Part shown: positions 19,935 to 50,749 of the stretch, one piece after another
Position numbering within the stretch: the stretch's first letter is position 1
Layout of the letters: every line of letters begins with the position of its first letter
Assembly: GCF_030704205.1 (NCBI RefSeq)
Contig: NZ_CP131913.1
Location: 744,001 to 808,000 of the forward strand
Source of the DNA: Halomonas alkalicola
Lineage (GTDB): Bacteria; Pseudomonadota; Gammaproteobacteria; Pseudomonadales; Halomonadaceae
Direction: 5' to 3'
Length of the DNA: 64,000 nucleotides
The notes under the pieces: generated by a model
Databases searched by the model: none
The model's input: only the letters and a program-made list of their open reading frames with translations
What the model was told of the DNA's origin: nothing
Program-made: the position numbers and the translations under genes

Positions 19935-20783
19935 TCAGCCCAGCAGGCCCGCGCCGCGCAGCGTCTCGCGCAGCTCGGCGGGCGCCTCAGGGGCCGCGGC
20001 CCGGAACAGGCGGTAGAAGTTGGCGGTGGTCTGCATGGCAACCTCCTCCACGCTGATGCCTCGCTCGGCGGCGATGCACTCGGCGACCTCCACCACCCAG
20101 GCCGGCTCGTTGGGCTTGCCGCGATGGGGCACTGGCGCCAGGTAGGGGCTGTCGGTCTCGATCAGCAGCCGATCCAGCGGCACCTTGCGCGCCACCTCGC
20201 GCAGCGCCTCGGCGTTGCGGAAGGTGACGATGCCGGAGAGCGAGATGTAGAAGCCGTGGCGCACCGCCTCCCGGGCCATTTCGAGATCCTCGGTAAAGCA
20301 GTGCAGCACGCCGCCGATGGCCGGGTCGGTGTGCTCGCGGATCATCGCCAGGGTCTCCTCGCGGGCCTCCCGGGTGTGGATGATCACCGGCAGCTCGAGT
20401 TCGGTGGCGGCGATCAGCTGGCGGCGGAAGCGCTCGCGCTGCACCTCGCGGGAGGGCACCTTGTCCGGCGCCTTCTCCAGATAATGGTAGTCCAGGCCAC
20501 ACTCGCCGATGGCCACGGCGCCGAAGCGCTCGGCGGCCTCCTTGATCGCCTCGAGGCTCGGTTCCTCGGCGACGCTGTGCAGCGGGTGAACCCCGGCGGA
20601 GATCACCACGTCGTCATGCTCCCGGGCGATGGCCGCCACGCCGGGCACCTCGTCGAGGGTGACGCCGATGGCCAGGAACTGCTTCACCCCCCGGGCACGG
20701 GCGGCATCCAGGGCGGCGGCGAGGTCACCGCCGTGGGTACGTGGGTCGAGGCGGTCGAGATGGCAGTGGGAATCGACGAACAT
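19935..20783 (-). CDS. tatD: TatD-family metal-dependent deoxyribonuclease/hydrolase
   Basis: A 282-residue TIM-barrel hydrolase of the TatD/YcfH group. Metal-binding and catalytic residues sit in the expected motifs: MFVDSHCHLDRL, ISAGVHPLH, AIGECGLDYHYLEKAP, LPVIIHTREAREETL, GGVLHCFTEDLEMAR and LLIETDSPYLAPVPHRGKPN. In related genomes this gene directly follows holB-pilZ; here pilZ lies 12.4 kb away, on the far side of the men/frd block. Because the promoter that once served holB-pilZ-tatD cannot reach it, tatD must now use a new promoter near 20.8 kb. Confidence 0.9.
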   Translation of the reverse strand: MFVDSHCHLDRLDPRTHGGDLAAALDAARARGVKQFLAIGVTLDEVPGVAAIAREHDDVVISAGVHPLHSVAEEPSLEAIKEAAERFGAVAIGECGLDYHYLEKAPDKVPSREVQRERFRRQLIAATELELPVIIHTREAREETLAMIREHTDPAIGGVLHCFTEDLEMAREAVRHGFYISLSGIVTFRNAEALREVARKVPLDRLLIETDSPYLAPVPHRGKPNEPAWVVEVAECIAAERGISVEEVAMQTTANFYRLFRAAAPEAPAELRETLRGAGLLG

Positions 20784-20891
20784 CGGGGCTCTTCTTCATC
20801 GTTCAACATCGAGCCAGGCAGGGTACCACGAAAGCGCCGCGGCGATGGACAAAAGGGCCGCCGCGCCGCGCGCCACCGCGGCCGGCCCGGC

Positions 20892-20920
20892 TTCTCATCG
20901 CCCGGGCCATCCAGTATTCT
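20892..20920 (+). promoter_or_regulatory. Candidate promoter of menF
   Basis: TTCTCA (20892-20897), 17 nt, TATTCT (20915-20920), each four of six matches to sigma-70 consensus, about 30 nt before the menF ATG. It lies in the 168-nt gap between the divergent tatD and menF, where no other promoter is obvious. No FNR palindrome was found here. Confidence 0.4.
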
Positions 20921-20951
20921 GCTCGCTCACTTCATGGACCGAACGGACGAC

Positions 20952-22256
20952 ATGCGAGTACCTCCCCGTATCATGCGGCGCCTGGACACGCTGGGGAAAC
21001 GCCCGCCGAGCGGACTCCTTCGCCTGACCTGGCGCGTCGACATCGACAGTCCCCTGGACTGGCTCCGCGCCCAGCCGCTGCTGCCCCGCCTGTACTGGCG
21101 CTCGCGCGGCCCCGACGCCGTCGAGCATGCGGCGGTCGGCGCCGCCGACGAGCGCCCGGCCGAGGACGGCCTGCCGCCCGCCCTGCCCGCCTGCCTGGAG
21201 GACGCGGAAGCCCGCTACTTCGGGGGCCTGGCCTTCGACCCCCGGGACGCCGGCTGGCAAGGGTTCGGCGCCGGCCGCTTCGTGCTGCCACGCCTGGAGC
21301 TGGTGCGGCGCAAGCATGCCGCCGAGCTGTGCCTGAACCTGCTCTTCGACGGCCGCGATCCCGACGCGGAGCTGGAAGCCGCCCGCGCGGCGCTGCTGGC
21401 CCTGCGCGATGCGCGGCCCGCCGAGCCGCTGTCGCCGGTCGTCACCGGGCGCCACGACACCCCCTGCCGCGACGACTGGGCCGGCTGGGTCGACCGGGCC
21501 ACCTCGTCCGAGGAACAGGCCCGGGCCGCCAAGGTGGTGCTGTCGCGGCAGAGCCGGCTGCTCACCCGCGTCCCCGTCGATCCCTGGGTGCTGCTGGACG
21601 CCTGGCGCCGGCGTGCCCGGCACTGCTTCCATTTCGGCTTCCAGTTCTCCCCGGAGGCAACCTTCATCGGCTGCTCGCCGGAACGCCTCTACCGGCGCGA
21701 CGGCGCCCGGCTGCTCAGCGAGGCGCTGGCCGGCACCTGCCGGCGCGACGGCGACGCCGCCCGGGACGCGGCCCTGGCGGCCACCCTGCTCGCCGATCCC
21801 AAGAACCGCCGGGAGAACCAACTGGTGCACGCCGACATCCTGGCGCGCCTCGCCCCGCTCGCCCGCCACGCCAGCCTCGCCGAGCCCGGCGTCGTCAGGC
21901 TGCGCGCGCTGCAGCACATCCGGCGCGACATCGAGGCCGAGCTGCATCCCTGGGTGCGCGACCGGCACCTGCTGGCCGCGCTGCATCCCACGCCGGCGGT
22001 CGGCGGCACGCCCCGCGACGCGGCGCTGGCGTTCATCCGCCGCCACGAGCGCCACCGGCGTGGCTGGTACGCCGGCGCCTGCGGCATGCTGAGCCGCGAG
22101 GCCGCCGAACTGACGGTGGCGATCCGCTGCGCCCTGGTCACCGCCGAGGCAGTGAGCCTCTACGCCGGCGCCGGCATCGTCGACGGCTCCGTCCCCGACG
22201 ACGAGTGGGACGAGCTGGAGGCCAAGATCGCCGACGTCATGTCCCTGCTGGTATGA
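20952..22256 (+). CDS. menF: Isochorismate synthase MenF
   Basis: Converts chorismate to isochorismate, the entry to menaquinone synthesis. About 434 residues, close to E. coli MenF (431). The chorismate-binding domain is visible: [14 protein letters not shown] (catalytic Lys), [79 protein letters not shown] and [21 protein letters not shown] siderophore-type EntC is unlikely because menD and menH follow at once. ATG 20952 is preferred; ATG 20934 is six codons earlier. First gene of the men block. Confidence 0.92.
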
Positions 22257-22263
22257 GACCGCC

Positions 22264-23991
22264 ATGTCCAACGACGCCGCCACGCCCCCCTTTCCCCGCC
22301 ACCACGACACCTTCAACCATCTGTGGGCCGCGCTGCTGCTGGAGGAGCTGTACCGCCACGGCGTGCGCGACCTGGCGCTGGCGCCCGGCTCGCGCTCCTC
22401 GCCGCTGACCATGGCCGCCGCGGCCCACCCGGGGCTGCGCCGCCACCTGCACTTCGACGAGCGCGGCCTGGGCTTTCTGGCGCTGGGCCTGGCCAGGAGC
22501 TCCCGCCGCCCGGTCGCCATCGTCACCACCTCGGGCACGGCGGTCGCCAACCTGTTGCCGGCCGTGGTGGAGGCTCACCTGAGCGGCGTCCCCCTCGTGC
22601 TGCTCTGCGCCGACCGCCCGCCGGAGCTGTTCGACAACGGCAGCAACCAGGCGATCGACCAGCGCGACCTGTTCGCCCGCCACGTGGCGTTCCACCGCGA
22701 CCTGCCCAGCCCCGCCCCCGACATCGCCGCCGCCTTCGTGCTCGGCACGGTGGATCAGGCCATGGCCAGCCAGCGCCTGGCGCCCGGTCCCATCCACCTC
22801 AACTGCCGCTACCCCGAGCCGCTCTACCCCGGCGACCGGGCCATCGACGCCGGCGACTACCTGGCGCCGCTGGGCGACTGGCCCCGCGACCGGCGCCCCT
22901 GGGGGCCTTGGGTCGCCACGCCGCCGGGCTGCCCCGTGCAGCCGGACTGGGAGGCGTTTCGCGGAAGACGCGGCCTGATCGTCGCCGGACGCATCGACGA
23001 GCCCGAGCGGGCCCGCGCGGTGGCCGAGGCGTCCGAGCGCCTCGGCTGGCCGCTGTTCGCCGACCTGCAGAGCCAGATCCGCTTCGATGCGCGCAACCTG
23101 ATCCACGGCGACCTGGCGCTCCACGACGCGGCCTTCGTCGCCGAGCTGTCGCGGGCCGAGGTGCTGCTGCAGTTCGGCGGGCGCCTGATCTCCAAGCGCC
23201 TGAGCCGCTTCATCGCCCATCATCCCTGGCGCGACTACTGGCTGGTGGACCCCCTGCCCGCCCGCCTCGACCCCGACCACCGGGTGCGTCGCCGCCTGAC
23301 CTGCCGGGCGGACGACTTCCTCGCCGTCCACCCCGCGCCGCCCGCCGATGCGCCCTGGCACCAGCTGCCAGCGCGGCAGAGGCGGGCCAGCGAGCACGTC
23401 GAACGCGCCTGCGGGCGCTTCTCGGAGCTGGGCGTCTGTCATCGACTGAGCCGCCTCGCCGAGGGGCTGCTGGTGGTCGGCAACAGCCTGCCGGCGCGGC
23501 TGATGGACATGCTGGGCGGCGCCGGCACGGGCCCGGCGCGGGTGCTGGTCAACCGCGGCGCCTCCGGCATCGACGGCCTGATCGCCACCGCCTGCGGCGC
23601 CGCCCGGGGCAGCGGGATGCCGACGACCCTGCTGCTCGGCGACCTGAGCGCCCTGCACGACCTCAACAGCCTGGCACTGCCGAATCGGGACGGGCCGCCG
23701 CTGGTGGTGATCGTGCTCAACAACGACGGCGGCAGCATCTTCCACATGCTGCCGGTGCCCGACCGGGGCGAGCTGCTCGATGCCTGCTATCGCCTGCCCC
23801 ACGGGCTGTCGTTCGCCCGGGCCGCCGCCATGTTCGGCCTGGACTACGCGGCGCCGGAGACGCTGGAGGCCTTCGAGGAGAGCTACCGGAACGCCCTGCG
23901 CCGGGGCGCCACGCTGATCGAGGTCCGCGTGCCCAGCCGGCAGGTGGCCGAGGATCTCGAGGCCCTGGGAGCCCGGCTGCGTGAGCGCTGA
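22264..23991 (+). CDS. menD: SEPHCHC synthase MenD
   Basis: ThDP-dependent enzyme that joins 2-oxoglutarate to isochorismate, giving SEPHCHC and CO2. The 575 residues carry [77 protein letters not shown], and the ThDP/Mg motif [15 protein letters not shown] then [17 protein letters not shown]. All agree with E. coli MenD. It starts 7 nt after the menF stop and overlaps menH by 11 nt, so menF-menD-menH form one transcription and translation unit. Confidence 0.95.
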
Positions 23992-24745
23992 AGCGCGCAC
24001 CGCGACGCCCATCGTGCTGCTGCACGGCCTGCTGGGCGAGCGCCGCGACTGGGACGCGCTCATCGCGCGGCTGGACGGCCTCAGGTGCCTGGCCCTCGAC
24101 CTGCCGGGTCACGGCGACAATCGCCGGCTGCACGTCCGCTCCTTCGACGAGGCCCGGCGCTGGCTGTGCGGCGAGCTGGAGAGGCGCGGCATCCGGCGCT
24201 ACCGCCTGCTGGGCTACTCCCTCGGCGGGCGGCTGGCACTCCATCACGCCAGCCATCGGCCCGCCGGACTCGGGGTGCTGATGCTGGAGAGCGCGCACCC
24301 GGGCCTGCCCGAGCAGCAGCGCCCGGCGCGCCTCGCCCACGACGACGCCTGGGCCGAGCGCTTCGAGGAGGAGCCGCTGGAGAGCGTGCTGACCGACTGG
24401 TATCGCCAGCCGGTCTTCGCCGATCTGGACGAGTCGACCAGAACCCGCCAGGTCGCCAGGCGGCTCGGCAACCACGGCCCGGCCGTGGCGGCCATGCTGC
24501 GCGCCACCTCGCTGGGCCGGCAGCCCGCGCTCGGCGCATGGCTGGCGGGCACCGGGCTGCCGGTCTGGTATCTCTCGGGGAGTCGCGACGCGAAGTTCCA
24601 CGGCATCGGCTCGGAGCTGGCCCGGCGCTGCCGCCGTCTCAGGCACCTGAGCCTGCCCGGGGGGCACGATCTGCACCTCGACCGCCCCGACGACGTGGCC
24701 GAGGCGGTACGCGCCTGGTGCCGCGACGGCGCCGGCGATCCGTGA
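23981..24745 (+). CDS. menH: SHCHC synthase MenH
   Basis: Alpha/beta-hydrolase fold lyase that eliminates pyruvate from SEPHCHC. 254 residues: oxyanion region [28 protein letters not shown], nucleophile elbow [36 protein letters not shown], and the final histidine in [16 protein letters not shown]. The GTG start lies inside the menD end (11-nt overlap). The gene ends 18 nt before the convergent transporter gene. In E. coli menB would follow directly; here menB is 5.1 kb further on. Confidence 0.88.
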
Positions 24746-24763
24746 GGGTGAGCGCTCAGCGCG

Positions 24764-26233
24764 TCACAGGATCAGCGCCAGCCAGGGCATGCCAATCGCC
24801 AGCCAGACCACCAGGAACAGCAGCCCGAAGATCGCCCCGAGGCGCCAGAAGAGTGCGCTGGGCAGATAGCCGCTGCCATAGTAGACCGGGCTCGGGCCGG
24901 TGCCGTAGGGGGTCAGGATGCCCATGAAGCCCAGGGTCGGCAGCAGCAGCAGCACGAACATCTGCATGTCGAGGCCCTGAATGCCCGAGGCGGCGGCGAG
25001 GATCACCGGCAGCAGCGCCGTCACGTGGGCGGTGATGCTGGCGAAGAAGTAGTGCAGGGCGTAGAACAGCACGACCAGCGCCACCATGGCCATCAGCGGG
25101 TTGAAGTGGCTGATCTGCCCACCCACCACGGTGCCGAACCAGTGCACGAAGCCCACCTGGCTCAGCCCGCCCGCCAGCGCCACCAGCGTGGCGAACCATA
25201 CCAGAGTGTTCCAGGCCGGATTGTTGTTGAGGATATCGTCCCAGGTGACGATGCCGGTCAGCAGCATGCCGCAAATCACCACCAGCCCTACCAGCGATGC
25301 GGAGATGATGTCGCCGCCAAAGATCCACAGCAGCAGGGCCGTGACGACCATCAGCACCAGCACGATCTCCTTGCGAGTGAGAGCGCCCAGCTTCTTGAGT
25401 TCGTCTCTCGCCCAGTCGGAGACTTCATGGCCCGCCTTCACTTCGGGGGCGCATAGCCAGTAGCACAGCAGCGGTACCAGAAGCAGCAGCAGGATACCCG
25501 CCGGGGCAATCGCCATGAACCACTGTCCCCAGTTGACCTGAATGCCGGTGGCGCTCTCGGTCAGCGCGATGGCCAACAGGTTCGGGGCCATGGCGGTCAG
25601 AAACAGCGAACTGGTAACGCAGGTAGAGGCCAGCGCCGTCCACATCAAGAAGCTGCCCATACGCTTCATGCTCGGGTCATTGGGATGCGAATCGTAAAGG
25701 GGCGGAAGGTTGCGAATGACCGGATAGATGGTGCCCGCACTACGCGCCGTATTGGAGGGTGTGAAAGGGGCAAGAATGGTATCCGAGATCATCACCGCGT
25801 AGCCAAGCGTCAGGGTGCGCCTGCCCATGGCGTTCACGAGCCAGAGGGAAATGCGTCTGCCGAGGCCGGTCTTCTCATAGCCCAGGGCGAACATGAAGGC
25901 GCCGAAGATCAGCCACACGGTGGAGTTGGTGAACCCGGACACCGCCCAGGCAAAGGCCTGGTTGGCCGCGTTGAAGTTGGGCGCCGCGAGCTGCTCCGGC
26001 GAGAACAGCACCCAGGGCGCGAGCAGCGCCGCCGCGGTGACGCCGATCAGCCCGATCACCGCCCCCGGCAGGGGCTCGAGGATCAGGCCCACCACGCAGC
26101 CGAGGAAGATGGCGAAGAAATACCAGGCGTGGGGAGACAGCCCGTCGGGGGTCGGCCACAGCGCCACTACGACGGTGACGATGAGCGGCGCCAGAGACTT
26201 CCAGGAGGGGAAAGATATCCCGTTGAGGTTCAT
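24764..26233 (-). CDS. DASS-family (CitT-like) dicarboxylate:anion transporter
   Basis: A 489-residue inner-membrane protein with about a dozen hydrophobic helices. It matches the divalent anion:sodium symporter/CitT-TtdT group: GLILEPLPGAVIGLIGVTAA, SGFTNSTVWLIFGAFMFALG, ISDTILAPFTPSNTARSAGT (the SNT substrate/ion motif), LASTCVTSSLFLTAMAPNLL (second hairpin) and SITAHVTALLPVILAAASGI. ATG 26233 has AAGGA 7-8 nt upstream. It is divergent from frdA, sharing an FNR-like site, so uptake of fumarate or malate in exchange for succinate is the likely role; citrate or tartrate exchange cannot be excluded. Confidence 0.85.
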   Translation of the reverse strand: MNLNGISFPSWKSLAPLIVTVVVALWPTPDGLSPHAWYFFAIFLGCVVGLILEPLPGAVIGLIGVTAAALLAPWVLFSPEQLAAPNFNAANQAFAWAVSGFTNSTVWLIFGAFMFALGYEKTGLGRRISLWLVNAMGRRTLTLGYAVMISDTILAPFTPSNTARSAGTIYPVIRNLPPLYDSHPNDPSMKRMGSFLMWTALASTCVTSSLFLTAMAPNLLAIALTESATGIQVNWGQWFMAIAPAGILLLLLVPLLCYWLCAPEVKAGHEVSDWARDELKKLGALTRKEIVLVLMVVTALLLWIFGGDIISASLVGLVVICGMLLTGIVTWDDILNNNPAWNTLVWFATLVALAGGLSQVGFVHWFGTVVGGQISHFNPLMAMVALVVLFYALHYFFASITAHVTALLPVILAAASGIQGLDMQMFVLLLLPTLGFMGILTPYGTGPSPVYYGSGYLPSALFWRLGAIFGLLFLVVWLAIGMPWLALIL

Positions 26234-26246
26234 GAGCCGTTCCTTT

Positions 26247-26280
26247 CGTTGTCGTTTGCCAGCCGTTGTCGTTGACCAGC
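26247..26280. repeat. Two tandem 17-bp repeats in the transporter leader
   Basis: CGTTGTCGTTTGCCAGC (26247-26263) followed at once by CGTTGTCGTTGACCAGC (26264-26280), 15 of 17 identical, with a third partial CGTTG. They lie just upstream of the transporter ribosome site, in its leader or promoter. Direct repeats of this size are often binding sites for response regulators, but no regulator gene is in the block. Confidence 0.5.
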
Positions 26281-26391
26281 CGTTGCGAGACATGACGTAC
26301 CGGGAACGTCGAGAGACGGGACGTCTGCTCCACTCCCTAGACGGAGGCTAGGTGACGAACCCCCAGCGGAGAAGCCGAAACGGGAGCAATC

Positions 26392-26405
26392 TTGACGTGC
26401 GTCAA
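26392..26405. promoter_or_regulatory. FNR/Anr-like site between the transporter gene and frdA
   Basis: TTGACGTGCGTCAA is a perfect palindrome, TTGAC-N4-GTCAA, matching eight of ten defined positions of the FNR/Anr consensus TTGAT-N4-ATCAA. It is placed in the 339-nt divergent region, 168 nt before the frdA ATG and 159 nt before the transporter ATG. The TTGACG half could also act as a -35 element, with CATAAG 18 nt downstream (26416-26421). Oxygen control of both genes is the expected consequence. Confidence 0.6.
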
Positions 26406-26572
26406 GACCGGCATGCATAAGGATGCGCTCAAGTGGTCCCCTCTCGGAGCTGCATGCTAGACTCGATTCGAGACGTACGCCAACCGAGCTACGCGGACTC
26501 CCGCCGGCCCTTCGCGGCCGATGCCGCAACCCGGGCGCGGGAGACCAAGGACCGGACAGGGGCCGCATCACC

Positions 26573-28357
26573 ATGCAGCATCGAGATTTCGATATCGTCA
26601 TCGTGGGGGGAGGCGGAGCCGGACTGCGCGCCGCGATCGCCGCCGCCGAGCAGGCCAGGAGCGACCATCGGCCACAGCGCGTCGCCCTGCTCTCCAAGGT
26701 CTATCCCATGCGTTCGCACACGGTGGCCGCCGAGGGCGGAGCCGCCGCGGTCACCAGTCCGGACGACACGCTGCAGGCGCACTTCGACGACACCGTGTCC
26801 GGCGGCGACTGGCTCGTCGAACAGGGCGTGGCGGACTACTTCGTGCGCCACGCCCACCGGGAGCTGGTGCAGATGGAGCGCTGGGGCTGTCCCTGGAGCC
26901 GCAGGGACGACGGCAACGTGCAGGTACGCCGGTTCGGCGGCATGAAGACCGCCAGGACCTGGTTCGCGGCGGACAAGACCGGCTTCCACATGCTGCATAC
27001 CCTGTTCCAGACCTCGCTGAAATACCCCGAGATCGAGCGGCTCGACGAGTACTTCGTCCTCGACCTGGCCGTCCACGACGGCGCCGTGGCCGGCATCGTC
27101 GCCCTGGAGGTGGCCACCGGCGAGATGGTGCTGCTGCGCGCCAGGTCCGTGATCCTGGCCACCGGCGGAGCGGGACGGCTGTTCCGCTTCAACACCAACG
27201 CCGGCATCGTCACCGGCGACGGCATGGCCATCGCCTATCGCCACGGCGTCGCCCTGCGCGACATGGAGTTCGTGCAGTATCACCCCACCGGCCTGCCCGG
27301 CTCCGGCATCCTGATCACCGAGGCCTGCCGCGGCGAGGGCGGCATCCTGCTGAACAAGGACGGCTACCGCTACCTTCAGGACTACGGCCTCGGCCCCGAG
27401 ACCCCGCTGGGCCAGCCGCAGAACAAGTACATGGAGCTCGGTCCCCGGGACAAGCTGTCCCAGGCCTTCTGGCAGGAGCAGCAGGCGGGGCGCACCGGCA
27501 CCTTCGCCGGCAGCGACGTGGTCTATCTCGACCTGCGCCACCTGGGCGAGGCCTTCCTGCACGAGCGGCTGCCCTTCATCTGCGAGCTCGCCAAGGCCTA
27601 CATCAACGTCGACCCGGTGCGCGAGCCCATTCCGATCCGCCCGGCGGTGCACTACACCATGGGCGGCATCGAGACCGACCCGCAGTGCGAGACCAGCGTG
27701 GCAGGGCTGTTCGCCGCCGGAGAGTGCGCCTCGGTGGGGCTGCACGGCGCCAACCGGCTCGGCTCCAACTCGCTCACCGAGCTGCTGGTCTTCGGCCGCC
27801 TGGCCGGGGAGCGGGCCAGCCAGCGCGCGGCCCGGACGGAGTTCGCCGACCCGCGCGCCCTGCGGGAGCAGGCCGACGACCAGCGCGCCCGGCTGGCCCG
27901 GATGTGCGACGGCCGCGAGAGCGAGCACTGGGTCGAACTCAAGCGCGAGCTGGTTCAGGCCATGGAGTCGGGCTGCGGCATCTACCGCACCGAGGACGGC
28001 ATGGGCCACGCCCTGCAGACCGTGCGCCGGCTGCGGGAGCGCTACCGCGAGATCAGGGTCGGGGACACCAGCAAGGTCTACAACACCGAGCTGCTGGAGT
28101 GCATCGAGCTCGGCTTCGGCCTGGACATCGCCGAGGCGACCTGCCTGGGCGCCCTGGAGCGGCGGGAGTCGCGCGGCGCCCACCAGCGCCTCGACGAAGG
28201 CATGCAGGCGCGGGACGACGACCGCTACCTGCGGCACAGCCAGGTCTTCCATCGCCACGACGGCCCGGCCGAGCTGCGCTGGCAGGAGGTGGACACCCGC
28301 TTCTCCGCTCCCGCGGCACGGGTCTATGGCGACGCCGGCAAAGGATCAAGCGCATGA
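26573..28357 (+). CDS. frdA: Fumarate reductase flavoprotein subunit FrdA
   Basis: Catalytic FAD subunit of quinol:fumarate reductase, 594 residues. N-terminal motif [20 protein letters not shown]; covalent FAD histidine in [17 protein letters not shown]; active-site region [52 protein letters not shown], and [20 protein letters not shown]. The text after HPTG is almost the same as E. coli FrdA, which separates it from SdhA. Two membrane anchors, FrdC and FrdD, follow, also as in FRD. ATG 26573 lacks a strong ribosome site (AGGGG about 11 nt upstream). Its TGA overlaps the frdB ATG. Confidence 0.95.
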
Positions 28358-29079
28358 CCACCAAGCAGATCAGCATCAGACGCTATCTTCCCGAGCGCGA
28401 CGACGCTCCCTTCTGGCAGCCGTTCGAGGTGCCAGTCGACGACAGCACCTCGCTGCTGGACGCGCTCCATCACGTCAAGGAGAGCCTGGACGGCAGCCTG
28501 AGCTACCGCTGGTCGTGCCGCATGGCGATCTGCGGCTCCTGCGGGGTGATGGTGAACGGCATTCCCAAGCTGGGCTGCAAGACCTTCCTGCGCGACTACG
28601 ACGGAGAGATCCGCATCGAGCCGCTGGCCCACTTCCCGGTGCGTCGCGACCTGGTCGTCGACATGGAGATCTTCCTCGAGCACCTGGCCGCCGTGAAGCC
28701 CTACCTGATCGACGACGCCCAGACCCAGGAGACGGCCGAGACCTACCGGCAGACGCCGCAGCAGCTCGCCCGCTACCGGCAGTTCTCCAACTGCATCAAC
28801 TGCGGGCTGTGCTACTCGGCCTGTCCGCAGTTCGGCCTCAATCCGGAGTTCCTGGGCCCGGCGGCGCTGACCCTCGCCCACCGCTACAACCTCGACAGCC
28901 GCGACCGGGGCAAGGCGCAGCGCATGCCCGAGCTCAACCGCCACGACGGCGTCTGGAGCTGCACCTTCGTCGGCTTCTGCTCCCAGGTCTGCCCGAAGCA
29001 CGTCGACCCGGCCGCCGCCGTCAACCAGGGCAAGGTGGAAGCCGCCAAGCATACGCTGATCGCGCTGTTCAAAGGTTAA
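28354..29079 (+). CDS. frdB: Fumarate reductase iron-sulfur subunit FrdB
   Basis: Carries electrons from the membrane quinol site to FrdA. 241 residues with three cluster motifs: 2Fe-2S in [19 protein letters not shown] with GCKTF, 4Fe-4S in [20 protein letters not shown], and 3Fe-4S in [17 protein letters not shown]. The length matches E. coli FrdB (244). ATGA overlap with frdA; 9 nt to frdC. Confidence 0.95.
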
Positions 29080-29088
29080 GGAGATCGC

Positions 29089-29481
29089 ATGCACAAGCCG
29101 CCGAGAGCCCATCCGCCGCTGCCGCGGAACTGGTGGCTCAAGCACCGCTTCTTCATCGCCTACATGGCGCGGGAGGCCACGGTGCTGCCGCTGGTGTTCT
29201 TCATCGTCTGCCTGCTGGCCGGCACCCTCGCCCTCTCGCGAGGCCCCGACGCCTGGCAGGGCTGGCTCGGCTTCATGGGATCGCCGCCGGTCGTCGCCCT
29301 CAACGCGCTGGCACTGGTGGCCAGCCTCTATCACGCCTGGACCTTCTTCCAGCTCTTCCCCCGCGTGATGCCGCTGCGCCTGGGAGATCGCAGCGTCCCG
29401 GCCAGCCTCATGGTGGCGGGCCAGTGGGCGGGAGTGCTGGCCGTGCTGCTGCTGTTCGTCTGGGTATTCGGGAGGGCATGA
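29089..29481 (+). CDS. frdC: Fumarate reductase membrane anchor FrdC
   Basis: A 130-residue inner-membrane protein with three helices at about 28-50 (ATVLPLVFFIVCLLAGTLAL), 64-86 (PPVVALNALALVASLYHAWT) and 105-127 (SLMVAGQWAGVLAVLLLFVW). The opening NWWLKHRFFIAYMAREATVL and the GPDAWQGWLGFM segment match enterobacterial FrdC. With FrdD it forms the haem-free quinol-binding anchor that oxidises menaquinol. AAGGAG lies about 6 nt before the ATG. Confidence 0.9.
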   Translation: MHKPPRAHPPLPRNWWLKHRFFIAYMAREATVLPLVFFIVCLLAGTLALSRGPDAWQGWLGFMGSPPVVALNALALVASLYHAWTFFQLFPRVMPLRLGDRSVPASLMVAGQWAGVLAVLLLFVWVFGRA

Positions 29482-29482
29482 C

Positions 29483-29863
29483 ATGACCCAGCATCATCCG
29501 GACCGCCGTCAGGCATACGACGAGCCGCTGTGGTGGGCCCTGTTCAGCGCCGGCGGCGTCTGCTTCGCGCTGTTCGTGCCCTCGGCGGCACTGTTCCTGG
29601 CCTTGCTGCTGCCCGCCGGGCTGCTGCCGGCGGATGCGCTGAGCTACGAGCGCGCCTCTTCCCTGCTGTTCGGCCTGCCCGGCCTGATCTTCGTCGGGGC
29701 GACGATCTGCCTGCCGCTCTTCCACGCCGCCCACCGGATCCGTCACGGCCTGTTCGACCTGACGCTGGGCAGCGACGGCACCAACAAGTGGCTCATGTAC
29801 GGCGCCGCCGCCCTGCTCAGCGCCCTGGCGCTGGGCGTCGTGCTGCTGGGCATGCTGCGCTGA
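29483..29863 (+). CDS. frdD: Fumarate reductase membrane anchor FrdD
   Basis: A 126-residue inner-membrane protein with three helices at about 17-45, 60-83 and 104-124. Family features are [20 protein letters not shown] at the start, [17 protein letters not shown] (histidine-rich segment near the quinone site) and a final helix. It begins 1 nt after the frdC stop. menB follows 28 nt later, so frdABCD and menBCE probably share one transcript. Confidence 0.9.
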
Positions 29864-29891
29864 GCCTCACCCCGACGAAAAGAGAGAACCC

Positions 29892-30752
29892 ATGATCGAA
29901 GGCATCACGGAAGCGGAACTCTACGCGCCCATCGAATGGCGGGACCGTTCCGACGGCTATCGGGACATCCGCTACCACACCTCGCCCGACGGCATCGCCA
30001 GGATCACCATCGACCGGCCCGAGGTGCGCAACGCCTTCCGTCCGCGCACCGTGGCGGAGATGATCCAGGCCCTCGACGCGGCCCGTCGCGACAGCGCGAT
30101 CGGCGCGATCATCCTCACCGGCGCCGGCGACGAGGCCTTCTGCTCCGGCGGCGACCAGCGCATCCGCGGCGACTACGGCGGCTACCGCGACGACGAGGGA
30201 GTCCACCACCTCAACGTCCTGGACTTCCAGCGCGACATCCGCACCTGCCCCAAGCCGATCGTCGCCATGGTCGCCGGCTACGCCATCGGCGGCGGCCACG
30301 TGCTGCACATGATGTGCGACCTCACCATCGCCGCCGACAACGCCGTCTTCGGCCAGACCGGGCCCAAGGTGGGCTCCTTCGACGGCGGCTGGGGCGCCTC
30401 CTACATGGCGCGCATCGTCGGCCAGAAGAAGGCCCGGGAGATCTGGTTCCTGTGCCGCCGCTACGACGCCCGCCAGGCCCTGGAGATGGGGCTGGTCAAC
30501 CAGGTCGTGCCGCTGGCCGAACTGGAGCGGGAGAGCGTGCGCTGGTGCCGCGAGATGCTGCAGCACAGCCCCATGGCGCTGCGCTGCCTGAAGGCCGCGC
30601 TCAACGCCGACTGCGACGGCCAGGCCGGGCTGCAGGAGCTGGCGGGCAACGCCACCATGCTCTTCTACATGACCGAGGAGGGCCAGGAGGGGCGAAACGC
30701 CTTCAACGAGAAGCGCCGCCCCGACTTCTCGCGCTATCCTCGCAATCCCTGA
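29892..30752 (+). CDS. menB: 1,4-dihydroxy-2-naphthoyl-CoA synthase MenB
   Basis: Crotonase-fold enzyme that closes the naphthoate ring from O-succinylbenzoyl-CoA. The 286 residues include [55 protein letters not shown] and [20 protein letters not shown]. The C-terminal third, for example [20 protein letters not shown], is nearly identical to the E. coli protein from memory, supporting an enterobacterial-type origin. AGAGAGAA precedes the ATG. Followed by menC after 19 nt. Confidence 0.95.
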
Positions 30753-30771
30753 GCCGGGCTCACGGGACCCG

Positions 30772-31755
30772 ATGCGCCTCGCCCTCTACCGCTATCGCCT
30801 GCCCCTTACACGTCCGCTGATGCCGGGCGACGCGCAGCCCGGAAAACGGGAAGGCCCGACACAAAAGAGCCCGATACGAGAGGGCCTGCTGCTGGAGATC
30901 GACGGCCAGTGGGGGGAAATCGCCCCGCTGCCCGGCTTCTCCCGGGAGAGTCTGGACGAGGCCGAGGCGGAGAGCCTGGCCTGTCTCGAGGCCCTGGCGC
31001 GCGGCCGCGCCATCGCCCCGCGCCTGCCGTCCGTGAGCTTCGGCTTCGACTGCGCGCTCAGGCGCTCGCCCCCCGCCGTCGCGACGCCTCCCGAGCCCTG
31101 TCCGCTGCTGCAGGGCCCGCCCCTCGAGCTGCTGGCCGGCCTCGACGATCTGGCGCGGGCCTGGGAGACGGCGGCGGTTCGCAAGGCCAAGCTGAAGGTG
31201 GCCCGCCACGCCACGCAGGACGAGCTGGCGCTGATCCGCCGGCTCACCGAGCGCTTCCCGGCGCTCATGCTGGTGCTCGACGCCAACGGCGGCTGGTCCC
31301 GGGCGCAGGCCCTCGCCTTCTGCTCGCGGCTGCCGGTCGGGCGCATCGACTATCTCGAGGACCCCTGCGCCGACTTCGCCGACAGCGCCGCCGTCGCCGC
31401 CGCCAGCGGCGTGCCCATCGCCGTCGACGAGCCCCTGGCGCGCGGCCTGCCCTGGCACCCCGTCCCGCAGCTCGCGGCGCTGGTGATCAAGCCCACCCTG
31501 GTGGGCTCCCTGGCCCGCTGCGAGGCCCTGGTGCGGGAGGCGCGGCGGCTGGGCCTCAGGACGGTGGTCTCCTCGAGCTTCGAGTCCGACCTGGGGCTCG
31601 GGCTGCTGGACAGGCTCGCCGCCGAATGGGCGCCGGACGAGCCTCCGGGGCTCGATACCCGCCGCTGGCTGGCGAAGGGCCTGCTGGCCCCGGACGGCCT
31701 GCCCGAGCGCGACGCCCTGATCCGCCTCCACCGGAGCGACGGCCACCATGAATGA
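30772..31755 (+). CDS. menC: o-Succinylbenzoate synthase MenC
   Basis: Enolase-superfamily dehydratase making o-succinylbenzoate from SHCHC. 327 residues with the expected catalytic set: KxK in RKAKLKVARH, metal ligands in VLDANGGWS, YLEDPC and IAVDEPLARG, and the second lysine in LVIKPTLVGSLARC. An SSSFESDLGL segment closes the barrel. E. coli MenC is 320 residues. Overlaps menE by 8 nt. Confidence 0.9.
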   Translation: MRLALYRYRLPLTRPLMPGDAQPGKREGPTQKSPIREGLLLEIDGQWGEIAPLPGFSRESLDEAEAESLACLEALARGRAIAPRLPSVSFGFDCALRRSPPAVATPPEPCPLLQGPPLELLAGLDDLARAWETAAVRKAKLKVARHATQDELALIRRLTERFPALMLVLDANGGWSRAQALAFCSRLPVGRIDYLEDPCADFADSAAVAAASGVPIAVDEPLARGLPWHPVPQLAALVIKPTLVGSLARCEALVREARRLGLRTVVSSSFESDLGLGLLDRLAAEWAPDEPPGLDTRRWLAKGLLAPDGLPERDALIRLHRSDGHHE

Positions 31756-33169
31756 CATGCCCTGCCCCATCCATCACTGGGCCGGCGAGGCCCCTTCGCG
31801 CATCGCCGTGCGAAGCGAGACGACGACCCTCGACTACCGCACCCTGGACAGACGCCTCGCCTCGCTCCAGTCGCAGCTGAGCGAGGCCGGGGTGGCGCCC
31901 GGCGCCCGGCTGGTCGCGCCGGTCCGGGGCAGCCTGGAGGATCTGCTGCTGGCCTGGACCTGCCTGCGCGCGGGCCTCCTGTTCTGCCCGCTCAACCCCG
32001 CCTTTCCCGCCGAGACGCAGGTCGGGATGGCCCGGCGGCTGCGCGCGGACGCCTTCTACTCCATAGAGGGCTCATGTGCGGAGGGCTCGCCGGCCCCGGA
32101 CTGGCGGCCGCTGCGGCTCGACTTCTCCCGGGAGGCGGCCGCCGTTCCCCCGCCCCGCCTCGATCCCGAGCGGCCCTGCAACACCATCCTGACCTCGGGG
32201 TCGAGCGGGCCGCCCAAGGCGGTGCTGCACCGGCTCGGCAACCATCTCGCCTCGGCCCGCGGCTCGGCCGCCGTGCTGCCCCTGGACGCCGACTGCGGAT
32301 GGCTGCTGTCGCTGCCGCTGTTCCACATCGGCGGCTACGCCATTCCGTTCCGGGTCTTCCTCGCCGGGGCCTGCCTGATCCTCGATTCCCGCGCGCGGCC
32401 GCTCGGGGAGCGCCTGGAGCGGGAGCCCATCACCCACCTCTCCCTGGTGCCGACTCAGCTGTGGCGGCTGCTGCGGGAGGGCTTCCGCCCCGAGCGCACG
32501 CGGCTGCGGGAGCTGTTGCTGGGCGGCGCGGCGATACCCGCCCCGTTGGTGGAACGGCTGAGCGCCCTCGGGCTCGCGCCCAAGGTGAGCTACGGCCTCT
32601 CCGAGATGGCCAGCCAGGTGTGCACGGGGGAGCCGACGGCGCCCGGCGTGGTGGGCAGGCCGCTGCCCGGTCGGGAGGTGAGGATCGTCGACGACGAGAT
32701 CCAGGTGCGCGGCGACACCCTGTTCGTCGGCTATCTGGAAGGAGAGAATCTCGTGCCCGCCCGCGACCCCGAGGGCTGGTTCGCGACCCGCGACCGGGGG
32801 CGCTTCACCGACGGGGGCGAGCTGGTGGTGGAGGGACGGCTCGACAACCGCTTCGTCTCGGGGGGCGAGAACATTCAGCCGGAGACGATCGAGCAGCGCC
32901 TGGTGGATCATCCCGGGGTGGCCCAGGCCCTGGTGGTGCCGGTGCCCAGCGAGGAGTGGGGGCAGCGGCCGGTCGCCTTCGTCGACTGGCACGACCATCC
33001 GCTGCCGGCCCGCGCGCTCGAGGCCTGGCTGCGCGAGACGCTGCCCGGCTACATGGTGCCCGACGCCTGGCTGCCCTGGCCCGATGCCGACCAGGGACTC
33101 AAGCCGTCACGCCGGCGGCTGAGCGCGCTGGCCGCCGAACGGCTGGGCGCGCGGCCTCACAGCGTGTAG
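31748..33169 (+). CDS. menE: o-Succinylbenzoate-CoA ligase MenE
   Basis: Adenylate-forming enzyme that activates o-succinylbenzoate with ATP and CoA. 473 residues: P-loop TILTSGSSGPPKAVLHRLG, SLPLFHIGGYAIPFRV, VSYGLSEMASQVCTGEPTAP, FATRDRGRFTDGGEL and the C-terminal catalytic lysine in DQGLKPSRRRLSAL. The last gene of the men block. Its final 13 nt overlap the 3' end of pilZ on the other strand, marking the right edge of the inserted block. Confidence 0.9.
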   Translation: MNDMPCPIHHWAGEAPSRIAVRSETTTLDYRTLDRRLASLQSQLSEAGVAPGARLVAPVRGSLEDLLLAWTCLRAGLLFCPLNPAFPAETQVGMARRLRADAFYSIEGSCAEGSPAPDWRPLRLDFSREAAAVPPPRLDPERPCNTILTSGSSGPPKAVLHRLGNHLASARGSAAVLPLDADCGWLLSLPLFHIGGYAIPFRVFLAGACLILDSRARPLGERLEREPITHLSLVPTQLWRLLREGFRPERTRLRELLLGGAAIPAPLVERLSALGLAPKVSYGLSEMASQVCTGEPTAPGVVGRPLPGREVRIVDDEIQVRGDTLFVGYLEGENLVPARDPEGWFATRDRGRFTDGGELVVEGRLDNRFVSGGENIQPETIEQRLVDHPGVAQALVVPVPSEEWGQRPVAFVDWHDHPLPARALEAWLRETLPGYMVPDAWLPWPDADQGLKPSRRRLSALAAERLGARPHSV

Positions 33170-33492
33170 GTGGGCGCGCCCTTGTCCAGGCGGCCGGCCA
33201 ACAGGTTCTCGATGCGATCGCGCACCGACTGGTCACCGGCACTGAAGTGGATGCCTACGCCGGGCATGCGCCGCCCGCTGACCCCTTCCGGGGAGACCCA
33301 CACCACCTGGCCGGTGACCGGGACCCGGTCGCTCTCGCCGGGCAGGGTGAGCAGCAGGTAGATCTCCTGCCCCAGCTCGTAGCGCTCCCGGGTGGGCACG
33401 AAGATGCCCCCCCGCTCGAGCATCGGCATGTAGGCCGAGAGCAGGGTCTGGACATCCTGGATATTCAGCGACAGGGCCTTCTGGGCAGCCAT
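33157..33492 (-). CDS. pilZ: PilZ-domain type IV pilus protein
   Basis: A 111-residue protein of the original PilZ group, needed for type IV pilus assembly in Pseudomonas. It begins LSLNIQDVQTLLSAYMPMLE and RGGIFVPTRERYELGQEIYL, then VWVSPEGVSGRRMPGVGIHF and SVRDRIENLLAGRL. It lacks the RxxxR motif of c-di-GMP-binding PilZ domains, as this subgroup does. ATG 33492 follows GAGGAGAGG; upstream in-frame sequence lies in holB. Located 14 nt after holB. Its 3' end overlaps menE by 13 nt, yet the C-terminus looks normal (GRLDKGAPTYTL). Confidence 0.88.
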   Translation of the reverse strand: MAAQKALSLNIQDVQTLLSAYMPMLERGGIFVPTRERYELGQEIYLLLTLPGESDRVPVTGQVVWVSPEGVSGRRMPGVGIHFSAGDQSVRDRIENLLAGRLDKGAPTYTL

Positions 33493-46464: not shown

Positions 46465-49400
46465 ATGAAACGGATGCTCATCAATGCGACCCAGCCCGAA
46501 GAGCTGCGCGTCGCGCTGGTCGATGGACAACGCCTCTACGACCTGGACATCGAATCCGGTGCCCGGGAACAGAAGAAAGCCAATATCTACCGCGGCAAGA
46601 TCACCCGCATCGAGCCCTCCCTGGAAGCCGCCTTCGTCGACTTCGGCGCGGATCGCCACGGCTTCCTGCCGCTGAAGGAGATCTCCCGCGAGTACTTCGT
46701 CAAGGAGCCCGCCTCCGGCCGCCCCAGCATCAAGGAGGTGCTCAAGGAGGGGCAGGAGGTCATCGTCCAGGTCGACAAGGAGGAGCGCGGCAACAAGGGC
46801 GCGGCGCTGACCACCTTCATCAGTCTGGCCGGTCGCTTCCTGGTACTGATGCCCAACAACCCCAAGGCCGGCGGCATCTCGCGCCGCATCGAGGGGGAGG
46901 AGCGCAGCCAGCTCAAGGAGGCCATGGGGCAGCTCACCATTCCCGACCGCATGGGCCTGATCGTGCGCACCGCCGGCATCGGCCGCTCCCCCGAAGAGCT
47001 GCAGTGGGACCTGGACTACCTGGTCCAGGTGTGGGAATCGATCACCGCCGAGGCCGGCAAGCGCTCCGCTCCCTTCCTGATCTACCGCGAGTCCAACGTC
47101 ATCATCCGCGCCATGCGCGACTACCTGCGCCAGGACATCGGCGAGGTGCTGATCGACAGCGAGGCGGTGCACCAGGAGGCGCTGGCCTTCATCCGCCAGG
47201 TGATGCCCTCCTACCAGCAGAAGATCAAGCTCTACGTCGACGAGGTGCCGCTCTTCTCGCGCTTCCAGATCGAGTCGCAGATCGAGACTGCCTACGAGCG
47301 TGAGGTGAAGCTGCCCTCCGGCGGCTCCATCGTCATCGATCACACCGAGGCGCTGGTCTCCATCGACATCAACTCGGCGCGCGCCACCCGCGGCAGCGAT
47401 ATCGAGGAGACCGCCCTGCAGACCAACCTGGAGGCGGCCGACGAGATCGCCCGCCAGCTGCGTTTGCGCGATATCGGCGGCCTGGTGGTGATCGACTTCA
47501 TCGACATGAGCCCGGCACGCAACCAGCGCGAGGTCGAGAACCGCGTGCGGGATGCGCTGAAGCTGGACCGCGCCCGGGTGCAGATCGGCCGCATCTCGCG
47601 CTTCGGCCTGATGGAAATGTCCCGCCAGCGCCTGCGCCCGTCACTCGGCGAGACCAGCGGCGTGGTCTGCCCGCGCTGCGACGGCCAGGGCACCATCCGC
47701 GACGTCCGCTCCATCTCCCTCTCGATCATGCGCCTGATCGAGGAAGAGGCCATGAAGGAGCGCAGCGCCCAGATCCGCGCCATCCTCCCGGTGCCGGTAG
47801 CCACCTACCTGCTCAACGAGAAGCGCAACGTGCTGGCCGACATCGAGCGCCGCCAGGGCGTGCGGGTGGTGCTGCTGCCCAGCCCGGACATGGATACGCC
47901 CCACTACGATGTCCAGCGGCTGCGCGACGACCACGTGGACGAGGAGGGCACCGCCACCCTCTCCAGCTTCGAGCTCTCCACCGACACCGAGGTCGGCCGC
48001 GAGCCGGAACCCACCTTCGGCAAGCCGGTGCAGCGCGCCGAGGCCGCGGTGAAGACGGTCATCCACCACGAGCCGGCCCCCGCCTCCCTGCAGCAGGAAG
48101 AGGCCCCGGCACCCAAGGCCCCCGCCAAGCCCCCTGCCCCGGCAGCCAGGGCGCCGGCCCGCCCGCCCGCGGTGCAGCAGCCGGTCGCCGAGCCCCAGGC
48201 CGGCGTGCTGGGCCGCCTGGTCAAGGGCCTGGCCAAGTTGCTCGGCGGCGACGAAGCGCCTGCCGACAGCGGCAAGGCCCCCGCCGCCCGCGGCGAGGAG
48301 TCACGCGCTGACCAGGGCGCCCGCAAGCCCGCGCAGCGCGACGACGAGCGCAGCGGGCGCAATCAGCGTCAGCGCCGCCCGCGCAGCGAGGAGCGCCGCG
48401 GCGCGCCGCGCCAGGAGAGCGAGCGCGGCGACAGCAGGGCCGAGTCCGCCGACAACCGCGGTGGCCGTGGCGGCCGTGGGCGCGGCCGCCAGGACGATGC
48501 CCGTCAGGCGCGTCAGCCCGAGGCACCCAAGCGCGATGAAAGGCCGCGCGACGAGAAGCCCCGGGACGACGCGCGTCGCCAACGCGGCGGCGACAGGCGT
48601 GACGAGCGCCCGGCCGAGAAGCCGGTAGAGGCGAAGAGCAACGCGCCCAGGGCCGAGGCGCCGGTGGACGACGGCAAGCCCAAGCGTACCCGCAACAACC
48701 CGCGCAGCCGCAGCCGTCAGCACGCCATCAGCCCGAAGGCCCTGGAGGAGCAGCAGCGCCTCCAGGCCCAGGCGGCCGAGGCCCAGCCGGAAACGGCAGC
48801 CGAGGCGCCCAAGGCCGAGGTAAAGGCTGAAGCGCCCAAGGCAGCGCCGCAGCCCGCCGAGCCGAAGGCCGAGGCACCGAAGCCCGACGCGCCGAAGGCC
48901 GAGGCTCCGAAAGCCGCCGAGCCGAAGGCCGAGGCTCCGAAAGCCGCCGAGCCGAAGGCCGAGGCTCCGAAGCCCGCCGAGCCGAAGGCCGAAGCGCCCA
49001 AGCCCGAGGTAGCCAAGCCCGACGCACCGAAGGCCGAAGCGCCCAAGTCCGCCGAGCCGAAGGCCGAGGCGCCCAAGCCCGAGGTAGCCAAGCCGACCGA
49101 GCAGAAGGCCGAAGCGCCCAAGCCCGACGCGCCGAAAGCCGAGGCACCCAAGCCCGACGCGCCGAAGGCCGAGGCACCGAAGCCCGACGCGCCGAAGGCC
49201 GAGGCACCCAAGCCCGACGCGCCGAAGGCCGAGGCACCCAAGCCCGACGCGCCGAAGGCCGAGGCACCGAAGCCCGACGCGCCGAAGGCCGAGGCACCGA
49301 AGCCCGACGCGCCGAAGGCCGAGGCACCGAAGCCCGACGCGCCGAAGGCCGAAGCGCCTAAGCCCGACGCGCCGAAAGCCGAGGCACCGAAGCCGGCGGC

Positions 49401-49611
49401 GCAAGCACCGGTCGAGGCCAAGGCCGAGGTAAAAGCCGAAGCGCCCAAGGCAGAACCGAAGCCCGCCGAGGCACCGAAGGCCGACGCCAAGGCCGAAGAG
49501 ACGCCAGAGGAGCGCCGCGCCAACCGCCGTCGCCGCCGCGCGCACAATGACCCGCGCGAGATCCGCCGTCGCGAGCTCGAGGCCAAGGCCCAGGAGAGCC
49601 CTCAGCGCTAG
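46465..49611 (+). CDS. rne: Ribonuclease E
   Basis: Essential endoribonuclease and degradosome scaffold, 1048 residues. Catalytic half: [21 protein letters not shown]1 domain around 36-119, [40 protein letters not shown] (metal-binding Asp) and the zinc-link CPRCDGQG. The C-terminal half is disordered: arginine-rich RNA-binding stretches (about 600-750), then a long Lys-Ala-Glu-Pro region with nine exact-length 10-residue repeats, and an arginine-rich end ([14 protein letters not shown]). ATG 46465 matches E. coli; GTG 46453 is less likely. RhlB, its usual partner, is at 6-7 kb. Confidence 0.95.
49111..49380 (+). repeat. Nine tandem 30-bp repeats inside rne
   Basis: Nine consecutive 30-bp units, each encoding [10 protein letters not shown], in frame in the RNase E C-terminal region (residues 883-972). 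Units differ only at a few wobble positions (GAGGCACCC, GAGGCACCG or GAAGCGCCC openings). Degenerate copies extend upstream to about 48800. Nearly identical DNA implies recent expansion and length instability. Confidence 0.9.
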
Positions 49612-49656
49612 GAGATAGGCCAAGCAGGGCTGAGGCCCCGCTTGACCCTCTTTGAG

Positions 49657-49694
49657 ACGACCGCGCCCGCAGCCATGGCTGCGGGCGCGGTCGT
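49657..49694. terminator. Bidirectional terminator between rne and murB
   Basis: A 38-nt perfect palindrome (19 bp each side, centre CCATGG) 45 nt after the rne stop and 27 nt past the murB stop. Position between convergent genes and stem strength support termination in both directions. Confidence 0.75.
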
Positions 49695-49720
49695 TATGGC
49701 ATGGCCGTCGAGTCAGGCCA

Positions 49721-50749
49721 TCAGCGCTCGCCGGCCAGCCGGGGCTCCCGCTCGAGGGTCACGCCGAAGCGCTCGTGCACGCGGCTCGCCACCCGCTTGG
49801 CGAAGCCGAGCAGCTCCGCCGCACTGCCGCCACCGAAGTGAACCAGCACCAGCGCCTGGCGCTCATGCACCCCGAAGTGCCCCTCGCGCAGGCCCTTGAG
49901 GCCGCAGCGGTCGATCAGCCAGCCGGCGGCCAGCTTGACCCGCCCGTCGGGCTGGGGGAAGTGGGGCATCTCGGGGTGCTCGGCCAGCAGTCGCTCGGCC
50001 AGCGCCTGCGACACCACCGGGTTCTTGAAGAAGCTGCCGGCGTTGCCGAGCACCGCGGGGTCGGGCAGCTTCTCGCGGCGAATGGCACACACCGCCTCGG
50101 CCACTGCCAGCGGCGTCGGGGCCTTCCCCACCCGACTGGCCAGATCGCCATAGCCCAGGTGCGCCCGCGCAGTGCGCGACAGCCGAAGCACCAGCCGGGT
50201 GATCACCACCCGCCCCGCGAGAGCCCCCTTGAAGATGCTGTCGCGGTAGCCGAAGGCGCACTCCTGCGGCGTCATCCAGCGCTCACGTCCGTCCGCGAGA
50301 TCCACCACCTGCAGCGCCTCCAGCACCTCGCAGAGCTCGACGCCATAGGCGCCGATATTCTGGATCGGCGCCGCCCCGCAGTGGCCGGGAATCAGCGCCA
50401 GGTTCTCGGTGCCCCACAGGCCGAGGCGCGCCAGGGCCATCACCAGCGCGTGCCAGACCACCCCCGCCTCGGCGTGGACCCGTACCTCGTCCTCCTCGTC
50501 CTCCTCGCCCTCCTCGAGCCACCAGGCCGCCATGGCAGGCCGGATGACCAGCCCAGGCAGGCGCTCGGGCAGGATCAGGTTGCTGCCGCCGCCGAGCAGG
50601 GTCAGCGGCCAGTCTCGGGCGCGCGCCTCTGCCAGGGCCATCTGCAGCTCGGCCAGGCTTGCAGGCGCGACGAAATGCTCCGCCATGCAGGGCAGGCCCA
50701 GGGTGTTCGACGAGGCCAGGTCACGCGCGGGATAAGCCACCGGACTCAA
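49721..50749 (-). CDS. murB: UDP-N-acetylenolpyruvoylglucosamine reductase MurB
   Basis: FAD enzyme making UDP-MurNAc. 342 residues from a TTG start that overlaps the upstream phosphatase stop (TTGA). The early NTLGLPCMAEHFVAPASL segment is family sequence, so the ATG at codon 22 is too late; a GTG at codon 4 is also possible. Motifs: LTLLGGGSNLILPERLPGLV, IPGHCGAAPIQNIGAYGVEL, GYRDSIFK, and GNAGSFFKNPVVS (catalytic serine). It is the E. coli-like type I form by length. Confidence 0.93.
   Translation of the reverse strand: MSPVAYPARDLASSNTLGLPCMAEHFVAPASLAELQMALAEARARDWPLTLLGGGSNLILPERLPGLVIRPAMAAWWLEEGEEDEEDEVRVHAEAGVVWHALVMALARLGLWGTENLALIPGHCGAAPIQNIGAYGVELCEVLEALQVVDLADGRERWMTPQECAFGYRDSIFKGALAGRVVITRLVLRLSRTARAHLGYGDLASRVGKAPTPLAVAEAVCAIRREKLPDPAVLGNAGSFFKNPVVSQALAERLLAEHPEMPHFPQPDGRVKLAAGWLIDRCGLKGLREGHFGVHERQALVLVHFGGGSAAELLGFAKRVASRVHERFGVTLEREPRLAGER

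Follow-up and report, generated by a model that had tools for sequence, protein, structure and literature searches.

A mosaic block of menaquinone and fumarate reductase genes between tatD and pilZ in Halomonas alkalicola, likely gained from another halomonad and deprived of its own menA

Introduction

How genes for menaquinone synthesis and genes for fumarate reductase came to lie together between tatD and pilZ in Halomonas alkalicola, and how they might serve fumarate respiration without a menA of their own, is the question raised by the locus described here. The window, that is, the whole 64-kb stretch that was analysed, covers positions 744001-808000 of a 3.61-Mb, one-contig genome of this species (G000), and all coordinates below refer to it unless stated otherwise. 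A 2024 survey of quinone pathways describes how the Men pathway was gained repeatedly within the Pseudomonadota, and suggests asking whether fumarate reductase came with it (PMC11707229). The block in the window is likely a fumarate-respiration island of the Halomonadaceae, mosaic in structure, gained by recombination from another halomonad and stripped of its own menA, with an orphan MenA-type enzyme probably substituting. Its gene content, its site, its mosaic structure and the loss of menA are directly observed; its history and function are argued from comparison with 275 Halomonadaceae genomes, 90 of them in the window's genus and 82 in Vreelandella (g23).

Gene content and setting of the block

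An earlier note on this DNA had placed menF-menD-menH, a dicarboxylate transporter, frdABCD and menB-menC-menE between tatD and pilZ; family scans agree, and the boundaries that it gave, 20784-33169, fit the gene calls. To the right of tatD (19935-20783, minus strand) and a short gap, the first plus-strand genes are menF (isochorismate synthase, 20952-22256; TIGR00543, 322 bits against a cut-off of 225, scanned from 21033), menD (SEPHCHC synthase, 22264-23991; TIGR00173, 428 bits, cut-off 244) and menH (SHCHC synthase, 23981-24745; TIGR03695, 239 bits, cut-off 209). The carrier gene dct (24764-26233; TIGR00785, 497 bits), the sole minus-strand gene within the block, encodes a DASS-family dicarboxylate carrier, to which the related solved structures are DASS and chloroplast dicarboxylate transporters. 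The fumarate reductase genes follow in a row on the plus strand: frdA, the flavoprotein (26573-28357; NF006686, 986 bits, cut-off 854), frdB, the iron-sulfur subunit (28354-29079; NF009051, 411 bits, cut-off 333), and the membrane anchors frdC (29089-29481; NF003445, the best-named match, at 114 bits below its cut-off of 143) and frdD (29483-29863; NF003977, 99 bits, cut-off 60). Also on the plus strand, menB (DHNA-CoA synthase, 29892-30752; TIGR01929, 479 bits, cut-off 343), menC (o-succinylbenzoate synthase, 30772-31755; TIGR01927, 188 bits, cut-off 131) and menE (o-succinylbenzoate-CoA ligase, 31748-33169) complete the block. MenE was named by its best matches, both below their cut-offs (NF006539, 383 against 494 bits; TIGR01923, 314 against 330); with it, all six of menF, D, H, C, E and B are present, and the frames are open throughout the block, the six men genes and frdABCD included.

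The last codons of menE overlap the 3′ end of pilZ (33157-33492, minus strand; PF07238, 43 bits), beyond which lie holB, tmk and a YceG-like gene. The flanking gene row YceG-tmk-holB-pilZ-tatD-DUF1285 runs on the opposite strand, and the block, which faces it, separates pilZ from tatD. FrdA, which is of the quinol type, also exceeded the TIGR01176 cut-off in a profile scan and matched E. coli FrdA (1KF6) with 849 bits, while FrdC matched its E. coli counterpart (1kf6_C) with 78 bits. The enzyme resembles E. coli FrdABCD in having four subunits in the same order, with FrdA aligned over nearly its full length and FrdC alignable, but differs in that its genes sit within a menaquinone-gene block together with a DASS carrier, and in that FrdC falls under the NCBIfam cut-off. 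The men genes resemble the gammaproteobacterial Men pathway of the Aeromonas type, as typed by MenD, in their menF-D-H and menB-C-E runs; here, however, the two runs are split by dct-frdABCD, and menA is deleted.

That the block is an assembly artefact or a contamination can practically be dismissed. It is lacking in the same-species genome G030, with which the window strain was compared, but it stands within a single 3.61-Mb contig, its flanks are 94-100% identical to those of G030 outside a short tract in tatD, and a cluster of 99%-identical MenD, whose members are of unstated strain identity, holds nine member sequences and three contigs.

The insertion site

The tatD/pilZ site was read in 25 of the 90 genomes of the window's genus. 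In G030 and the 19 genus genomes that came next by HolB score, tatD adjoins pilZ (20/20), and the site is empty; the G030 junction is short and resembles those of G096, G088 and G087. The block was found at the same site in G049 and in G190, and dct-frdABCD without men genes occupies it in G046, G066 and G097. The earlier note had named the pilZ-tatD interval across the Halomonadaceae as a check on its claim of horizontal acquisition: the interval is indeed empty in the near relatives, but the block is shared by many members of the family.

One edge of the block retains a trace of its arrival. At sites where G030 differs from another genome, G073, the window up to 20589, on the tatD side left of the trace, carries the G073 letter at 28 of 319 sites, whereas from 20619 to the junction it does so at 22 of 25, a contrast that none of 2000 permutations equalled. 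The 5′ end of tatD is therefore a foreign tract (20589-20783, minus strand), G073-like and unlike G030, which ends 165-195 nt inside a gene that is otherwise G030-like. Because these letters are of the G073 type, the block appears to have come in together with part of the tatD of a G073 relative. G073 itself was rejected as the donor, since it has neither MenD (counted as present when scoring over the TIGR00173 cut-off) nor FrdA (counted at E ≤ 1e-230). A change point near 35.1 kb on the pilZ side (0/2000 permutations) was discarded, as it falls at the border of tmk and mltG, a region of poor alignment between G030 and G000.

The hallmarks of an integrative element, namely an integrase, a tRNA site and flanking repeats, are absent from the block edges. 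No tRNA gene was found in the 64-kb window, no mobile-element family among the eight flanking genes scanned, and the longest word common to both edges measures 10 bases, against a mean of 9.8 for random pairs, so that the earlier remark that no integrase, insertion sequence or tRNA lies at the edges was borne out. The block would have been gained when homologous recombination, one end of which fell in tatD, brought it in from a different halomonad with the block already between tatD and pilZ.

Mosaic structure and origin

Divergence from G049, whose gene order is identical to that of the window, is unequal along the block. DNA identity reaches 92-96% in dct-frdABCD and 89% in menB, compared with 74-79% in the other men genes and 73-82% in tatD, pilZ, holB, tmk and mltG. 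Identity at fourfold sites follows the same order, with 82-95% in dct-frdABCD, 74% in menB, 60-73% in the other men genes and 50-62% in six flanking genes (a UvrD-like gene with four such sites was left out). Per 250 bases, identity is 82-98% from the carrier gene to menB (24784-30783) and 63-83% on either side, with the exception of a stretch in menF (21534-22283) at 82-92%. The G+C content agrees, at 64-71% in dct, frd and menB and 74-76% in the other men genes, and the block is therefore regarded as a mosaic, in which, judging from these identities, the dct-frdABCD(-menB) core is a recent exchange among halomonads and the other men genes are older.

The mosaic also bears on whether the genus inherited the block at tatD/pilZ from its ancestor and most lineages then lost it, without any recent transfer. 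Its occurrence at the same site in G049 and in G190, of another genus, is consistent with such a history, as is the finding that the men genes of the window and G049 are little closer than their flanks. An ancestral block would, however, be hard to reconcile with a dct-frdABCD core much closer to G049 than the flanks are, with the foreign tract in tatD, with the short G030 junction that resembles those of G096, G088 and G087, or with the lack of FrdA in 82 of the 90 genus genomes, and it is judged improbable. Horizontal acquisition, as the earlier note had proposed, is upheld by the empty site in all 20 near genomes, the foreign tract and the unequal divergence from the flanks.

An enterobacterial source, to which the note's description of the genes as enterobacterial in type would point, was not supported. 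Phylogenies were built for FrdA (32 halomonad and 15 outside rows, from 134 FrdA matches) and for MenD (11 of 43 halomonad-set matches, 8 of 120 listed proteins and 8 outside loci), both with a long-branch warning for the outside rows. All but one of the 32 halomonad FrdA rows form one clade (100/99), and the window and G049 are joined within it at 100/99 (100/100 in a concatenated dct-frd tree). The remaining row, from G136, falls just outside, with Oceanisphaera and a metagenome-assembled genome (MAG), followed by Aliidiomarina, with Vibrio and Enterobacterales far away. Among the matches listed, from a search in which 80 loci were kept, the nearest FrdA outside the family were those of Aliidiomarina, a gammaproteobacterial MAG and Oceanisphaera. 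The halomonad MenD rows used and Aeromonas MenD, the nearest outside the family, likewise fall into a single clade (100/100), with Enterobacterales and Vibrio on remote branches; Aeromonas stands beside G190 (88/83), and the window and G049 are joined at 88/88. A concatenated tree of the men genes resolves the branches near the window only weakly (80/44). A direct import from Enterobacterales, which the E. coli-type family of FrdA might suggest, is hardly credible, since identity to the enterobacterial proteins is about 62-65% for FrdA among the matches listed, versus 94% in G049, and 43-48% for MenD, versus 73% in G049, and since their branches are distant in both trees; an enterobacterial donor was rejected on these trees. 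The nearest copies lie in other halomonads.

Several observations weigh against the history proposed here. G073 matches the tatD tract, yet is without the block, and a donor tract sought on the pilZ side was not found, which leaves the tract evidence on the left side only. In the tree of FrdA by itself, G046, G066 and G097 group with the window (95/93), whereas the concatenated dct-frd tree places them outside the group made up of the window and Vreelandella; FrdA of G190, with the block at the same site, falls elsewhere among the halomonads.

A second frd lineage was observed in three genomes of the window's genus (G044, G071 and G087), whose FrdA groups with that of Vreelandella G230 and G231 (100/100; loci L125, L130, L131, L133 and L134). 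This grouping is a further sign of exchange, and frd has moved between genera on more than one occasion.

Loss of menA and the orphan prenyltransferase

The 168-base gap between tatD and menF (20784-20951, minus strand) aligns locally to the tatD-menA junction of G049 with a score of 116, whereas none of 500 shuffles scored above 54 and no control stretch above 56. Because the gap aligns to this junction, menA has been deleted from the window copy, which retains a 3′ remnant of the gene; the deletion would have been internal to the block. Between menA and menF of G049 there is a short frame (L043:2500-3635) that by eye resembles a DoxX-type membrane protein, and an FNR-type box was seen there at 2862. 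Block-type MenA was found in 34 of the 37 menD genomes (266-308 bits, split in two in one poor assembly); it is missing from the window strain, G092 and G191. In 30 of the 37, the gene lies at most 2.5 kb upstream of menD; elsewhere, it is 8 kb away (G258 and G237), beside menF in the rearranged block of G190, or on another contig (G253).

Menaquinone synthesis in the window strain probably depends on a MenA-type prenyltransferase encoded elsewhere in the chromosome. TIGR00751 matches once in the genome, over its cut-off (178.7 bits), at an orphan gene at 1511538 (L076:9506-10747), which keeps the ND..D and NN.RD...D prenyltransferase motifs of the block's MenA. No quinone gene was found among the scanned neighbours of the orphan. 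G092, which has menD and no block-type menA, likewise has an orphan-kind MenA as its only TIGR00751 match.

It is also conceivable, though distinctly less probable than a working pathway, that synthesis stops at 1,4-dihydroxy-2-naphthoate (DHNA) and that the orphan acts otherwise, in which case Frd would idle or use another quinol, or DHNA would be exported. The menA remnant speaks for such a half-pathway, as does the occurrence of the orphan kind in MenD-less genomes and in Thioalkalivibrio. Strains mutated in menA are reported to produce 2.5 times more ACNQ, a shuttle derived from DHNA, in Shewanella as well as in E. coli (PMC6687433). The open frames of six men genes and frdABCD, the two motifs kept in the orphan and the parallel case of G092 argue against a half-pathway. 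The route through the orphan has its own difficulties: the block has no menA, the orphan scores below the cut-off of the nearest NCBIfam model (224 versus 264 bits), and genes of its kind are also present in menD-less genomes, the same-species G030 included, so that its substrate may be something else. Nor was a clear excess of frd seen among genomes with a match in the orphan's score range (5 of 21, with type assigned by score alone).

The claim that the block is a unit for fumarate respiration thus stands as to the genes present, but not as to a complete menaquinone synthesis from the block alone. In the reading preferred here, the products of menF, D, H, C, E and B would yield DHNA-CoA, an assumed thioesterase would release DHNA, and the orphan MenA-type enzyme, in place of the deleted menA product, would prenylate it, with UbiE completing menaquinone. 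FrdABCD, as an E. coli-type quinol:fumarate reductase, would then pass electrons from menaquinol to fumarate, and the DASS carrier would take up C4-dicarboxylates or exchange them for succinate. The same genome encodes UbiE (278 bits) and SdhA (961 bits), as well as two neighbouring U32-protease matches, a pair that suggests an oxygen-independent ubiquinone pathway (UbiU/V).

A predicted oxygen-responsive promoter

The intergenic region between dct and frdA holds an FNR/ANR-type box, TTGACGTGCGTCAA (26392-26405), 181 nt before frdA, which is the only match to the consensus in the 64 kb (0.04 expected). Boxes were counted at 53 of the 57 listed frdA loci, the four without a usable FrdA match being left out: 45 of the 53 halomonad loci have one within 300 nt before frdA, as opposed to 48 of 3502 windows drawn from these loci, the boxes themselves included. 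The remaining eight, among them G190, are without a strict box, which tells against the reading preferred here. As the genome also encodes an Fnr-type regulator (NF008365, 288 bits, cut-off 228), both the box at the frd promoter and its protein are present, and control by FNR/ANR is predicted, whereby the protein would turn frd on without oxygen.

Distribution among the Halomonadaceae

MenD over the cut-off was found in 37 of the 275 family genomes: three of the 90 in the window's genus (the window, G049 and a partial match in G092), G190, G191 and 32 of the 82 in Vreelandella. FrdA is present in 55, of which eight belong to the window's genus, 40 to Vreelandella and seven elsewhere. The two go together, with frdA in 36 of the 37 menD genomes versus 19 of the 238 others, as raw counts that ignore kinship. 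The order menFDH-dct-frdABCD-menBCE was found in 30 of the 32 Vreelandella menD loci, two of the 30 having broken men frames in poor assemblies; of the others, one has no dct there and one ends at a contig edge. (A home-made gene finder performed poorly where G+C was lower and was used only as a rough guide.) The block in the window shares this order with that of Vreelandella and of G049, the latter at the same site; those blocks, however, have menA, and the Vreelandella ones lie in other flanks. Neither tatD nor pilZ was found in the fetched stretches of the Vreelandella menD loci, whose contexts are several: one group takes in 22 of the 30 left flanks, another 22 of the 28 right flanks, and the remainder differ (the left flanks of G258 and G237, with menA 8 kb off, were measured from menF).

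Outside these loci, the parts are arranged differently. In G190, they are rearranged, and G191 has a distant men cluster with no frd beside it. The men locus of G092 (L081, L261) is a different one, 35-69% identical, with menF-D on one contig and menH-B-C-E on another, and the stretches read gave no frd matches. In G146, G152 and G170 (L122, L123 and L124), which have no MenD over the cut-off, frdABCD lies near a weakly MenA-like prenyltransferase of the UbiA family, and L122 and L124 also hold an aspartate ammonia-lyase fused to a cyclic-nucleotide-binding domain; these strains may use another quinone, or an aspartate-fed fumarate respiration.

None of the parts is new in itself; what is new is the linked men-frd block, together with its spread and its reciprocally broken forms. 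The gains treated in PMC11707229 are alike in that a men locus moved into a ubiquinone lineage, here one with the U32-protease pair, and differ in that here men and fumarate reductase genes form one block, which bears on the question of a joint gain raised in that paper; the string "Halomonad" has no match in its main text. Among open-licence papers, judged by title and the opening of the abstract, none on a menaquinone/fumarate-reductase block in Halomonas, Halomonadaceae or Vreelandella was found.

Genomes with menA and frd but no MenD over the cut-off

The converse of the window's arrangement was found in six genomes (G136, G137, G194, G234, G241 and G254), which have block-type MenA and FrdA and no MenD over the cut-off; three of them (G234, G241 and G254) are single contigs. 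In a search that covered 17 genomes, none of the six had MenB over its cut-off or futalosine genes, and G194 gave no MenB match at E ≤ 1e-50. A MenB-family match in G254 reached 326 bits, below the cut-off of 343; similar matches occur in G046 and G097, and G049 has one in addition to its block copy, so that the G254 protein is probably a relative. At loci L084-L087 (G194, G241, G234 and G254), dct lies between menA and frd, and in G136 and G137, menA and frd are on different contigs.

Lactiplantibacillus plantarum uses DHNA from outside (PMC10746273), and by analogy, strains with menA and frd but without MenD and MenB could use external DHNA. It might further be speculated that menaquinone synthesis is shared out, with menA-less strains feeding DHNA to these strains, as a community trait that rests on a reciprocally broken mobile block, but such an arrangement is considered rather unlikely. 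With full blocks, frd without men genes, menA and frd without DHNA synthesis, and a block without menA all at hand in the Halomonadaceae, both the order of gains and losses and the use of foreign DHNA are directly testable in this family.

Apart from the block, the AT skew of the window is very strong at 48001-50000 and 57001-58000 (0.60, 0.53 and 0.45), and stays below 0.22 in the rest of the window.

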